Source of the DNA: a virus
Strand: one strand, 5' to 3'
Length of the DNA: 21,914 nt
IMG/VR virus record: IMGVR_UViG_3300032316_000633
Span: 1-21,914 of that record
The position numbers and the translations under genes are program-made. Below the pieces are notes generated by a model. The model was not told the origin of the DNA, searched no databases, and saw nothing but the letters and a program-made list of their open reading frames with translations. This document shows positions 17,895 through 21,645 of the stretch, piece after piece. The first letter of the stretch is position 1. Every line of letters starts with the position of its first letter.

Positions 17895-17912
17895 TTTTTC
17901 TCTCCGATAAAT

Positions 17913-17926
17913 GGGGCCGTAGCCCC
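17913..17926 (-). promoter_or_regulatory. UACG-tetraloop hairpin upstream of ribosome binding site
   Basis: On the minus strand GGGGC-TACG-GCCCC, the same stem as at 17683-17696 with the loop changed from UUCG to UACG. Both loops belong to the stable UNCG class, so the structure and not only the sequence is kept. It precedes ATTTATCGGAGAG and the ATG at 17894. Confidence 0.7.
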
Positions 17927-17931
17927 GTTAA

Positions 17932-18246
17932 TTAATTCCAAGCGTGAACTGATTTAAAACCAATTGGTGCAACAAAAACTGCGTGACCCGTTTCGTCAAC
18001 GATTACATCGCCAACTGACAGGGAATGCATTTCGTCAATTCTTTTGATGTCTGGGTGGTTTCCCATGTTACCAATACGAAACACATCGTTTAATGAACCA
18101 GCTTTGATTTCAGCAACTGGCTTGTACAAATCTTGAGCAGTCAAAATTGCTTTTACAGTTGGGTGAAATGTTGTATCGAGATATGTCTCGCGATGAGCAG
18201 CGTATTGTTCGTCTGACAAGTTGATTTGGTGTACTGTGTATTTCAT
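17932..18246 (-). CDS. Conserved small phage protein (104 aa), first gene of the leftward operon
   Basis: Start at ATG 18246 behind ATCGGAGAGAAAA; the frame remains open to 18342 but the promoter lies within that stretch. N-terminal YTVHQINLSDEQYAAHRETY, middle VAEIKAGSLNDVFRIGNMGN, C-terminal MHSLSVGDVIVDETGHAVFV followed by APIGFKSV. The HSLSVGDVI-x-D-x-x-G-x-x-x-V-x-x-x-GF motif recurs in small proteins of many phages, usually unnamed, and probably forms a beta-barrel-like end domain. As the promoter-proximal gene it is likely the most highly expressed early protein. Function unknown. Confidence 0.65.
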   Translation of the reverse strand: MKYTVHQINLSDEQYAAHRETYLDTTFHPTVKAILTAQDLYKPVAEIKAGSLNDVFRIGNMGNHPDIKRIDEMHSLSVGDVIVDETGHAVFVAPIGFKSVHAWN

Positions 18247-18289
18247 TTTTCTCTCCGATTTTGTTGCCCGATCAAATGACCGTAGATGA

Positions 18290-18318
18290 ATAGTAAACTG
18301 TTTATTTGCATTCCGCAA
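18290..18318 (-). promoter_or_regulatory. Sigma70-like promoter for the leftward early operon
   Basis: On the minus strand, TTGCGG (18318-18313) and TACTAT (18295-18290) are separated by exactly 17 bases. Transcription would start near 18283, leaving about a 37-base leader with the GGAGAG ribosome binding site. The AATTAGGG repeat lies 25 bases upstream of the -35. Confidence 0.62.
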
Positions 18319-18342
18319 CCGATTTATGCGTTTTTTTATCAA

Positions 18343-18391
18343 AATTAGGGAAATCCCCTATAAAACTAGGGTAAACCACTAGAAAAATACC
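18343..18391. other. Control region, left part
   Basis: AT-rich, gene-free DNA carrying AATTAGGG (18343), its inverted repeat and AACTAGGGT (18364), immediately upstream of the leftward promoter. It is likely regulatory. Together with the repeat array and RNA it fills the 790-base gap between the divergent operons. Confidence 0.5.
18346..18360. repeat. TAGGG/CCCTA inverted repeat
   Basis: TAGGG (18346-18350), five bases, CCCTA (18356-18360). The AA(C/T)TAGGG word recurs at 18364-18372 and 18491-18499, so it may be a protein-binding site flanking the repeat array. Confidence 0.5.
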
Positions 18392-18468
18392 CAATAAATG
18401 ACAATAAGTCTGCACAATAAATGACAATAAATGCTCAATAAATGCTTAATAACTGCGTAATAACTGCT
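18392..18468. repeat. Iteron-like array of about seven 10-13 bp direct repeats
   Basis: Tandem units matching YAATAAMTGCK: 18392, 18402, 18415, 18425, 18436, 18447 and 18458. The last four are exactly 11 bases each and the first three are looser. The block is AT-rich, lies between two divergent operons and is flanked by AACTAGGGT repeats. Such arrays are typical of initiator-binding origins or multi-site operators. No protein that would obviously bind it is identified, although the winged-helix and HTH proteins are candidates. Confidence 0.62.
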
Positions 18469-18481
18469 TATTACCTATTAA

Positions 18482-18544
18482 CCATGGTCGAACTAGGGTT
18501 GAACCATGGTTAAAAAAACCAGACTTTCTTAAATAAAACCATGG
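18482..18544. promoter_or_regulatory. Three CCATGG palindromes, possible operator
   Basis: CCATGG at 18482-18487, 18504-18509 and 18539-18544. The middle copy extends to AACCATGGTT; the third is immediately followed by TAATAT, a possible -10 element. The copies are spaced 22 and 35 bases apart (about two and three helical turns), which suggests binding of a dimeric regulator on one face of the DNA. Confidence 0.45.
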
Positions 18545-18557
18545 TAATATTAAGGGG
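18545..18557 (+). promoter_or_regulatory. Possible -10 element and start of the structured RNA
   Basis: TAATAT at 18545-18550 is followed by TAAGGGG, so a transcript could begin at the G run (18554-18557), exactly where the first long RNA stem begins. No good -35 is seen at the right distance; an activator binding the palindromes could substitute. Confidence 0.33.
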
Positions 18558-18960
18558 TCAGCAAGGTGGCACTTGTTGGAATCTCTGGAAGCGAACCCCG
18601 AATTTTTCGGTGGTGCGATAGGTTTTGGCATCGGTCATTCTTCCAGAGGACTTATTCCAAAACTGCCCGCCAAGGCCGCACCACCCAAGGATTTGGGGTT
18701 TTTTGTTGCCTGCTGACCGTACTCCGAGCGTTATTAAGAGCCTACATCGGCTGCGCGGAACAGTAGATACGGTATCGGCTCACCACCAGATTACCGGAGC
18801 AGCCTGTCAACGAGGGACTGCGGAACTAGCCTAAGACATGGGTGATAGACAACTTAGGCTAGGATGAATCGTTGCCTTATGGGGCGCATAGGCTGGATTG
18901 TTTTACTAATCTTTGCTGGTGCTAAAGTGATCATGGCTATCACCCTTGGGTAACCTATGA
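18554..18960 (+). ncRNA. Candidate large structured noncoding RNA with two pseudoknots
   Basis: No credible gene lies here, yet the sequence is full of long perfect complementarities. 5' domain: closing stem 18556-18563/18711-18718 (8 bp, extended by G-U pairs that fit only the plus strand); 18594-18599/18695-18700; 18609-18617/18677-18685 (9 bp); 18622-18628/18657-18663 (7 bp). The loop segment 18640-18648 pairs with 18583-18591 (9 bp), a pseudoknot. All five helices are mutually compatible. 3' domain: 18826-18835/18853-18862 (10 bp), whose 17-base loop pairs through 18840-18848 with 18937-18945 (9 bp), a second pseudoknot; hairpins 18874-18893 and 18911-18927. Weaker stems lie between. I do not recognise the family. 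It is not tmRNA, RNase P RNA or a tRNA by the motifs I know. A large ornate phage RNA of the GOLLD/ROOL kind is a comparison to make, though this one is shorter. Confidence 0.62.
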
Positions 18961-18964
18961 GAAA

Positions 18965-19004
18965 AAGAAATAGAAACTAAAAACTGCCTTGCAAACTATT
19001 TCTT
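18965..19004 (+). terminator. AT-rich inverted repeat before the rightward early operon
   Basis: AAGAAATAG (18965-18973) and CTATTTCTT (18996-19004) form a perfect nine-base-pair stem with a 22-base loop, just downstream of the structured RNA and 19 bases upstream of the AAGGAG ribosome binding site. It could end the RNA, act as an attenuator, or be a dyad for protein binding. No long U-tract follows. Confidence 0.35.
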
Positions 19005-19037
19005 AATCATTTATTCTCTGCAACAAGGAGAACAAAT

Positions 19038-19310
19038 ATGACCCTCGATGATCTAGAAGAAGTTGCCCTTAAATGCGGAATGGTAAGAACCAAAAAAAAT
19101 TGGTCGGCCACCGAATCACAATTGGAATGCTTTGCAAACAATTTGCTTGAAGCGTTTAGAGGGATTGCTAGAGACCAGCTAATTCAATCCATTAAACGCG
19201 CAGCTGATTACGAGCGCGAACAATGCGCCAAGGTCGCTGAGATGTCCTGGTTTGAGGGCATGGAACAAGAGGACATAGCCAAGGCTATTCGTGAGCGGGG
19301 CGATGAATGA
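19038..19310 (+). CDS. Small conserved phage protein (90 aa), first gene of the rightward early operon
   Basis: A strong AAGGAG lies eight bases before the ATG. The protein is helical: DDLEEVALKCGMVRTKKNWS, a middle NNLLEAFRGIARDQLIQSIK, then DYEREQCAKVAEMSW and EDIAKAIRERGDE. The ERE-x-CAKVAE motif followed by an AIR-x-RG end is very common in small phage proteins of replication regions, but its role is unknown. The next small gene starts inside its stop codon (ATGA). Confidence 0.65.
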   Translation: MTLDDLEEVALKCGMVRTKKNWSATESQLECFANNLLEAFRGIARDQLIQSIKRAADYEREQCAKVAEMSWFEGMEQEDIAKAIRERGDE

Positions 19311-19411
19311 TTGCCTATTCTGCTCAAACCCCGTCATTAGTGGATTTTTCTTGGTTTATTTTGGTTGTTGCTATTTTGGCTTGTTTAGCTATTTGGTTGA
19401 GGGATAAATGA
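19307..19411 (+). CDS. 34-aa single-span membrane protein, coupled on both sides
   Basis: Begins ATGA inside the stop of the preceding gene and ends ATGA inside the start of the following gene. The peptide is MIAYSAQTPSLVDFSW followed by the membrane span FILVVAILACLAIWL and a positively charged RDK end. Two-sided ATGA overlap, exact filling of the gap and a clean membrane span make this a credible gene despite its size. Function unknown; it sits between replication-type genes, as small membrane proteins often do in early phage operons. Confidence 0.58.
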   Translation: MIAYSAQTPSLVDFSWFILVVAILACLAIWLRDK

Positions 19412-19788
19412 CAGACTTTGATGAATTTTGGAAAACCTACCCACGCCGTGTGGCCAAGGGCGATGCGCGTAAGGCCTGGAAACAAACTGAGGGCATTCGC
19501 CCGCCGCTGCCGGAACTGTTGGACGCTATTCGGCAACAAATGCGCTCGGACCAATGGCGTAAGAATGACGGCCAGTTTGTATGCTACCCCGCCACCTGGT
19601 TGCGCCAGGAGCGCTGGTCTGACGAGTTAAAAGTGACCCTGCCTGGCGTGGTTGATGGTAAAGAATGGCATGAAACATGGCCAGGCATTGTGGCCAAAGG
19701 TAAAGAATTAGGCATTCTGGAGTCCCAGTTTGACCAGCCATATTTATTTAAAGCTGCGGTATTGCGCGGATCGGTAAAGGCTGCGTAA
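19408..19788 (+). CDS. Replication-protein-like domain (126 aa)
   Basis: The N-terminal motif FDEFWKTYPRRVAKGDARKA, then LPELLDAIRQQMRSDQW, and later GQFVCYPATWLRQERWSDEL are the hallmark of the C-terminal domain of phage replication proteins of the O/DnaD-like type, which recruit the host helicase or its loader. Here it stands alone without the usual N-terminal DNA-binding domain; that part may be supplied by another protein. The rest (PGIVAKGKELGILESQFDQP) is a helical end. Position beside the candidate origin and before nuclease and resolvase genes fits a replication role. Starts by ATGA overlap. Confidence 0.65.
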   Translation: MTDFDEFWKTYPRRVAKGDARKAWKQTEGIRPPLPELLDAIRQQMRSDQWRKNDGQFVCYPATWLRQERWSDELKVTLPGVVDGKEWHETWPGIVAKGKELGILESQFDQPYLFKAAVLRGSVKAA

Positions 19789-20390: not shown

Positions 20391-20630
20391 ATGAAAAAGA
20401 TGAAACGCCGACCACGGCTTGCGCAGGATATTTTGGTCTTGCTTGAGCAAAAACCCAACATTACGCAAGCGGAGATTGCAAAAGAACTGCTGGCCAAACC
20501 CCATTCCATTAAAGCGGTATTATGGAAATTAGTGCATCAACAGAATAAAATTGTTGCTACAAAAGGCGCAAAAGCAGATAAAATGACAGGGCCGAAGGTC
20601 ATTAATATGTACTGTTTGAAGGAATTATGA
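20391..20630 (+). CDS. Winged-helix DNA-binding protein (79 aa)
   Basis: A basic N-terminus (KKMKRRPRLAQDILVLLEQK) leads into PNITQAEIAKELLAKPHSIK and AVLWKLVHQQNKIVATKGA, a winged-helix pattern in which ITQAEIAKEL is the turn and HSIKAVLWKLVHQ the recognition helix, then a wing and a C-terminal strand. A candidate regulator of early genes, perhaps acting on the repeats in the control region. A second in-frame ATG at 20400 is possible. It overlaps the next gene (ATGA). Confidence 0.68.
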   Translation: MKKMKRRPRLAQDILVLLEQKPNITQAEIAKELLAKPHSIKAVLWKLVHQQNKIVATKGAKADKMTGPKVINMYCLKEL

Positions 20631-21168: not shown

Positions 21169-21362
21169 ATTGCGGAAATTGCCAGTTTTTTCAGGGTACG
21201 CAGTTCGGCCATTGCCGGCGCTACCCTGAAACAGTAACCAAACAGGCTGGGATGTGGTGCGGTGAACACCAAGTCGTGGTGCCACCGCAGCCAATATTCA
21301 CGGAATTGGCAGCCACTCCAGCACCCAAAAGGCGCAAGAAAAATGATACGACCGTTGCGTGA
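21165..21362 (+). CDS. Cys-rich zinc-finger-like protein, GTG start (65 aa)
   Basis: Starts at GTG 21165 inside the preceding stop (GTGA). Cys3-x2-Cys6 (NCGNCQFFQGTQ) with Cys17 (GHCRRYPETV) and Cys32 (MWCGEH) gives four possible zinc ligands. The pattern C-x-x-C-x-FF ... C-R-R-YP ... WCGEH occurs in small phage proteins. The C-terminal third is Pro-rich and basic (KRRKK). It overlaps the GroES-like gene by 20 bases. A zinc-binding adaptor role is likely; partner unknown. Confidence 0.62.
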   Translation: MNCGNCQFFQGTQFGHCRRYPETVTKQAGMWCGEHQVVVPPQPIFTELAATPAPKRRKKNDTTVA

Positions 21363-21645
21363 CCGAATCGTTGTAAGACCCGTTGAGCGGGTCAAGAGCC
21401 AGGTGATTGAAGTCATCATGGATGAACTGCCTAACATCGGTGAGGTATTGGCCGTAGGGCCTGGCGAGATTGACAAAAAAGGCCGGTTGATTCCTAATCC
21501 TATAGAAATAGGCCAGAGAATCCGATTTGGGGGCGCGGAGGACTATTTGTCTTACCCTAGATTTGAGATTGACGGCGAAGAATACCTCGTGATGTCTTGG
21601 AAAGATGTCTGTTTTGTGGAGACCGATAATGCCCAAAACCACTAA
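21343..21645 (+). CDS. GroES-like co-chaperonin (100 aa)
   Basis: Start at ATG 21343 (AAAAGGCG upstream). The pattern MIRPLRDRIVVRPVERV, LPNIGEVLAVGPGEIDKKGR, IEIGQRIRFGGAEDYLSYPR and FEIDGEEYLVMSWKDV is that of Cpn10/GroES, a heptameric lid for chaperonin GroEL; phage versions assist folding of the capsid protein or replace the host lid. The mobile loop region (VKSQVIEVIMDELPNIG) lacks the usual IVL tripeptide that contacts GroEL, having VIEVI instead. No GroEL gene is in the window, so it presumably works with host GroEL. It overlaps the next gene by 17 bases. Confidence 0.78.
   Translation: MIRPLRDRIVVRPVERVKSQVIEVIMDELPNIGEVLAVGPGEIDKKGRLIPNPIEIGQRIRFGGAEDYLSYPRFEIDGEEYLVMSWKDVCFVETDNAQNH

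Follow-up and report, generated by a model that had tools for sequence, protein, structure and literature searches.

Phased repeats between the early operons of an uncultured virus look like an exchangeable control region beside an apparently undescribed structured RNA

Layout of the early region

The repeat array studied here, at 18392–18468, is in the IMG/VR virus record IMGVR_UViG_3300032316_000633, all 21,914 bp of which are referred to as the window. The array lies in a 0.8-kb gap between two divergent sets of genes. On the left, on the minus strand, are small genes and then those for an ERF annealing protein, a YqaJ exonuclease and an SSB. Protein genes on the right are on the plus strand; the first of them starts at 19038 and is followed by genes for a replication-associated protein (19408–19788), a RusA-like resolvase and a small winged-helix protein (20391–20630). 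The part of the gap not taken by repeats is filled by a structured RNA.

The preliminary description of this region spoke of replication genes from 19408 onward. The product of 19408 is indeed replication-associated, but it has only 126 residues and matches just the C-terminal part of initiator profiles (residues 178–252 of 383 in phrog_270, and 173–262 of 276 in phrog_9327). The assignment of 20391 as a winged-helix protein was borne out by an AlphaFold model with a pLDDT of 86, for which the nearest solved folds are of the MarR type. It has 79 residues, lacks a dimerisation domain, and is a candidate DNA binder. Further to the right, the product of 20627–20983 matches phrog_858 (“starvation-inducible transcriptional regulator”) and Pfam DUF5856, and that of 21262–21645 resembles, by eye, a GroES-type co-chaperonin.

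The window has the layout of P22 and lambda, in which operons for recombination (left) and replication (right) are transcribed away from a shared control region. The gap between the early operons of P22-like phages would hold a CI/Cro switch, whereas here it holds repeat blocks and a structured RNA, and the early genes examined include no identifiable CI/Cro-type repressor. The portal and coat proteins of one relative belong to phrog_156 and phrog_283, which we take to be P22-type families.

Repeats and putative promoters in the gap

The array consists of seven AT-rich tandem units, CAATAAATGA, CAATAAGTCTGCA, CAATAAATGA, CAATAAATGCT (twice), TAATAACTGCG and TAATAACTGCT, which by hand start at 18392, 18402, 18415, 18425, 18436, 18447 and 18458 and are thus spaced by 10, 13, 10, 11, 11 and 11 bp. 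The last four were originally described as exactly 11 bp long, and the hand reading agrees; Tandem Repeats Finder (TRF) reports 18392–18467 with a period of 11, 6.9 copies and 81% matches. When TRF was applied to 18246–18550 the best score was 74 and the 11-bp repeat scored 64, a value reached by none of 1000 dinucleotide shuffles of the same stretch (maximum 59) and by one in 1000 shuffles of the AT-rich 91 bp alone. The array is non-random, and tandem direct repeats of about one helical turn are what is expected of iterons.

Several other repeats surround it. Two exact copies of the 9-bp sequence AACTAGGGT, at 18364–18372 and 18491–18499, are the flanking repeats already reported for this locus. 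A second 11-bp series, AACCATGGTCG-AACTAGGGTTG-AACCATGGTTA, occupies 18480–18512, and TRF finds a 21-bp series on the left, at 18341–18386. The last array unit forms an inverted repeat with its right edge (GTAATAA-CTGC-TTATTAC, 18457–18474). Half-sites TAGGG, CCCTA, TAGGG and CACTA start at 18346, 18356, 18367 and 18377 (18346–18381), in alternating orientation and 10–11 bp apart. The central two make up a palindrome, CCCTATAAAACTAGGG (18356–18371), which has no second copy in the window at up to one mismatch.

Relatives were collected by two protein-based scans, which gave 91 loci, and 35 distinct gap sequences were read. Most of these 35 regions have a recognisable form of the palindrome CCCTA-n6-TAGGG (for example CCCCTACAAAATGTGGGG), and some a degenerate one; in distant relatives it directly adjoins the −35 element. 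A scan of 17900–19200 with the sigma-70 consensus returned no promoters, where 2.5 would be expected by chance. Three putative promoters were recognised from conservation only. That of the left operon is TTGCGG-17-TACTAT (18290–18318, minus strand), and reads TTGCAA-17-TACTAT in most close relatives. That of the right protein operon, TTGCAA-17-TATTCT (18989–19017, plus strand), is near-invariant in the alignment of close relatives. Between them, an extended −10-like box, TGGTAATAT (18542–18550, plus strand), occurs a short distance 5′ of the motif GTCAGC, just before the start of the structured RNA, in all 35 regions; in relatives the same position reads TGGTAACAT, TATAAAAT, TATAAT or TATCCT. 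Its −35 element is weak. The array had been described as lying between divergent promoters. Divergently oriented elements do flank it, but its immediate neighbour on the right is the start of the RNA, and the protein operon begins only at 19038.

Exchange of the repeat block among relatives

In blastn comparisons of the gap, the sequence to the right of 18539 is kept at about 88–95% identity in many loci, and the surroundings of the array are often unaligned. The full array is found in only four of the 35 distinct sequences, namely the window, L007, L064 and L010, and a shorter form in three more (L029, L124 and L019). The second 11-bp series accompanies the array in all seven, and the inverted repeat is retained in the three short forms. 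In more than 12 of the 35, TAGGCnnnnGCCTA units spaced by 21 bp replace the array. L014 has TAGGC-type units plus two AATAAATG-like units, and L018, L028 and L062 carry other block sequences. In more distant relatives, with replication proteins of up to 81% identity, there is mostly one palindrome such as CCCCTACAAAATGTGGGG and no array, and the operons are kept.

One close relative with such a replacement is L002, which has two 21-bp TAGGCnnnnGCCTA units in place of the array: its replication protein is 98% identical to that of the window, and its winged-helix and ERF proteins are each 99% identical. In a maximum-likelihood tree of 800 bp from the right operon, the array label changes four times, compared to 3.8 times with shuffled labels, counting L019 (a short form) as “other” under the strict pattern used. 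The block thus moves independently of the right operon. Among the neighbouring proteins compared, no type tracks the type of block. The 19408 and 20391 proteins were considered as specificity factors for the array and rejected, both being 98–99% identical across block types, and the first gene of the left operon was rejected as a determinant because it differs among array-bearing phages.

Different blocks have a common spacing. The strongest autocorrelation lag is 11 bp in the blocks of the window and L029, and 20–21 bp in those of L002, L012, L014, L022, L062, L018 and L032, so that all nine block types tested repeat at one or two helical turns, despite their differing sequences. Within the array type, the entire gap of L007 and of L010, including the array, aligns with the window from end to end at 93.5% and 92.8% identity respectively, and hence the array is not visibly diverging faster than its flanks.

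The repeats look like an exchangeable control region adjoining an RNA gene, given that close relatives swap them and keep all the neighbouring genes, and do not look like a replication origin. The array would be one variant of the phased regulatory repeat block, and its exchange between near-identical phages is unusual.

A structured RNA to the right of the repeats

The conserved sequence that follows the −10-like box has the features of a structured RNA on the plus strand, with a predicted 5′ end at about 18556–18557. A 413-nt fold from about 18556 has a z-score of −3.4. A search with the pattern of the 5′ hairpin gave 99 viral stretches, and filtering of all the loci fetched left 58 distinct RNA members. 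The RNA can be divided into two domains. Domain 1, of about 163 nt (18556–18718), starts with the hairpin TCAGCAAG-GTGGCA-CTTGTTGG (18558–18579), in which the GTGGCA loop is constant in every member selected with the pattern and the stem covaries. It is followed by the 5′ arm of a helix P3 (CTCTGGAAG, 18583–18591) and by a long stem P4, whose 5′ strand is at 18594–18617. The 3′ strand of P4 extends to 18700 and runs into a terminator-like T tract (18677–18704 in all). The 3′ arm of P3 (CTTCCAGAG, 18640–18648) lies inside the loop of P4, so that P3 and P4 together form a pseudoknot.

The arms of P3 are hypervariable between phages and retain their complementarity: stems of 8 bp or longer between an RNA's own two arms are possible in 49 of 58 members, compared to 14% of swapped pairs, although the stretch tested for the 5′ arm may include the start of P4 and a few of the stems counted (for example in L111 and L182) are P4 pairs. 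Neither P3 arm sequence has a further copy in the window, and an antisense target elsewhere in it was accordingly discarded. For the domain as a whole, RNAalifold applied to an alignment of 38 sequences predicts 37 pairs, 24 of them with double changes. In 34 of the 38 sequences, 95.4% of cells are paired, compared to 76.7% after shuffling and at most 53% with the partner slid; these values are biased towards the structure in so far as it was obtained from that alignment, which itself was made without fitting to the structure. There are 254 double-change cells compared to 90 in shuffles, and none of 500 shuffles matches the observed pairing. Compensatory changes in its helices, as expected of a structured RNA, are therefore present in domain 1. 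The 5′ strand TCAGC has two possible partners, the 3′ side of the hairpin to which it belongs and GCTGAC beyond the T tract. These pairings are mutually exclusive, and alignment column 6 covaries with each partner, which suggests alternative conformations and a conformational switch.

Domain 2 (18712–18956) is exchangeable. By eye there are at least four unrelated types among the window, L028, L098, L046 and L057; combining types, unrelated as they are, gave a consensus fold that was informative only in its first part. In L028 (4350–4470) and L098 (3951–4072) it is an already described RNA, the Betaproteobacteria-1 RNA (Rfam RF02932), with scores of 65.0 and 72.2 bits respectively against a gathering threshold of 49.4. 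The position of domain 2 in this RNA region is thus taken by a known family in those two relatives, whereas domains 1 and 2 of the window match neither that family nor any other in Rfam. Domain 1 of L028 is 100% identical to that of the window over 161 nt, and its repeat block and domain 2 are both different. Upstream of position 5001 in L046, whose replication protein is 77% identical, a different hairpin RNA-like sequence takes the position of domain 1, and domain 1 may therefore itself be exchangeable.

Domain 2 of L105 (4102–4346) and L215 (1645–1886) contains a stretch resembling the T arm and acceptor stem of a tRNA, which in L105 reads AACGG-TTCAAGT-CCGTT within CTCCCA...TGGGAG. Rfam gave no such match in either locus and ARAGORN found nothing in L215; a superficial likeness of the same domains to a cobalamin riboswitch likewise received no support from Rfam.

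We regard the existence of this RNA family as highly probable. It appears to be undescribed within Rfam 15, the sequence collections searched and open-access papers. A search of the window against Rfam 15 gave no match at the gathering threshold, the hits being at chance level, far below gathering and with E-values of up to 10, and no tRNA, tmRNA or known Rfam RNA was found in the window. Comparison with 50,697 phage records revealed no similar DNA, and neither did a comparison of one relative's sequence with 72,556 plasmids, so that no named phage or plasmid in these collections was seen to carry the RNA. A packaging RNA of the phi29 type was judged unlikely, since one relative encodes a large terminase, a portal protein and, in the position of the small terminase, a 95-residue ORF with no family match.

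Role of the repeat block

The reading that we favour, and hold to be slightly more probable than not on the sequence comparisons, is that the array belongs to a cis-regulatory block, exchangeable and helically phased, with the left recombination operon on one side and the structured RNA's promoter on the other. The array would supply phased binding sites, spaced by one turn here and by two in relatives, for a DNA-binding protein that would form a polymer on one helical face. The polymerised protein would control the weak extended −10 promoter from which the RNA probably starts (near 18556), with a possible effect on the left promoter also. Both the binding and the direction of control are conjectural. 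In all 35 regions, the block sits between the core of the left promoter and the −10-like box, and a gene for a winged-helix protein without a dimerisation domain is nearby. Against this, the array is about 90–165 bp upstream of the RNA start, which is far for a classical operator. It is not essential to the RNA, given that more distant relatives have the palindrome but no array.

There is a precedent for such binding in BldC of Streptomyces, a short winged-helix protein without a dimerisation domain, which assembles head-to-tail at promoter regions on AT-rich direct repeats that vary in number, and bends the DNA (PMC5859096). By analogy, the 20391 protein may bind in this mode, although BldC is MerR-like and uses 9-bp repeats, whereas 20391 has a predicted fold nearer the MarR type and the spacing here is 10–11 bp. 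As it is nearly identical across block types, it cannot on its own explain the swaps. Possible binders are a protein of the host and one that the phage encodes somewhere beyond the genes compared.

Alternatively, the block could be a tolerated spacer, generated by slippage and recombination, with function restricted to the palindrome, the −10 box and the RNA. Its sequence and copy number vary freely, block type shows no link to neighbouring genes, and distant relatives manage without a block, all of which fit a spacer. We nevertheless consider this rather unlikely: unrelated blocks have a common helical spacing, of 10.5–11 bp or double that, and the identities of 93.5% and 92.8% noted above leave no sign of the array diverging faster than its flanks.

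Phased repeat arrays beside replication genes readily get labelled as origins, and the array was initially put forward as an origin or master operator. The operator part of this proposal, if not necessarily the word “master”, fits, in that the array is between divergent early operons, in helical register, upstream of the conserved −10-like element and next to promoters, these being recognised by conservation only. The origin part, in which an initiator would bind the units as iterons and open the AT-rich repeats, is improbable. The array does share with the iteron origins of plasmids and phages its tandem AT-rich one-turn repeats beside a replication-associated gene, and repeats of some type are present in all close relatives. 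However, repeats bound by a shared initiator should be conserved, and L002, with its 98% identical replication protein, has lost the array; the preliminary description had itself named the loss of the repeats from close relatives that keep both operons as evidence against an origin. More distant relatives that keep the operons have a single palindrome. In the 19408 protein the N-terminal portion of the initiator profiles, which binds DNA, is missing, so that it does not qualify as a cognate initiator with a DNA-binding domain. Nor does the array combine a DnaA box with an AT-rich unwinding region: there is no DnaA box (TTWTNCACA) near it, and its AT content of 71% is not the maximum of the window, four other 80-bp stretches equalling or exceeding it with values of up to 76%. 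GC skew, which had been suggested as a check, has no consistent turning point at the array in ten long relatives, where the extremes of cumulative skew do not consistently coincide with the region, although G015 comes close; this is weak evidence, since skew in such genomes also tracks gene direction. To call this array an origin would probably be wrong, since comparison with near-identical relatives shows the repeats to be a block that can be swapped.

A scaffold for host nucleoid proteins of the H-NS or IHF type, silencing or bending the early region, would suit AT-rich phased repeats and a block type that no phage protein follows, as expected of a host-encoded binder, but is very improbable, given that the window has no IHF consensus and that the GC-richer TAGGC replacement blocks would not suit H-NS.

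Possible role and distribution of the RNA

The comparison of relatives that argues for an exchangeable regulatory block also brings to light an RNA family that is apparently undescribed and whose pseudoknot helix diverges rapidly. In the members read, the RNA is probably transcribed from the −10-like box ahead of its start. A speculative possibility, which we would not put high, is that an RNA with such a hypervariable helix acts in RNA-based control or in superinfection immunity. If so, P3 would give each phage its own specificity, and the gap between the early operons would encode, in place of a CI/Cro switch, a new modular RNA family, in which a conserved pseudoknotted 5′ domain is combined with an exchangeable 3′ domain and is driven by a promoter acting through swappable phased repeat blocks. 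The family is in any case a concrete target for studying how phages might use RNA in early control.

Structured phage RNAs of unknown function have been described before, namely GOLLD and ROOL, with many GOLLD members exceeding 800 nt (PMC12286853). GOLLD also combines a conserved part with a variable part, but GOLLD and ROOL are much larger, and the RNA of the window has no Rfam match and a different location and structure.

The carriers of the RNA family are dozens of uncultured phages and one apparent prophage. There were 42 hits to the hairpin pattern in bacterial genomes, most of them without the rest of the RNA, and L215 alone passed the motif filter. This locus (together with L249–L251) is on a 582-kb contig of an Akkermansiaceae MAG, where, barring a misassembly, the RNA and the early module are in an apparent prophage beside bacterial housekeeping genes. 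The prophage has different structural genes, and a reverse-transcriptase-like protein adjoins a tail-like gene, which by eye could be a diversity-generating retroelement.
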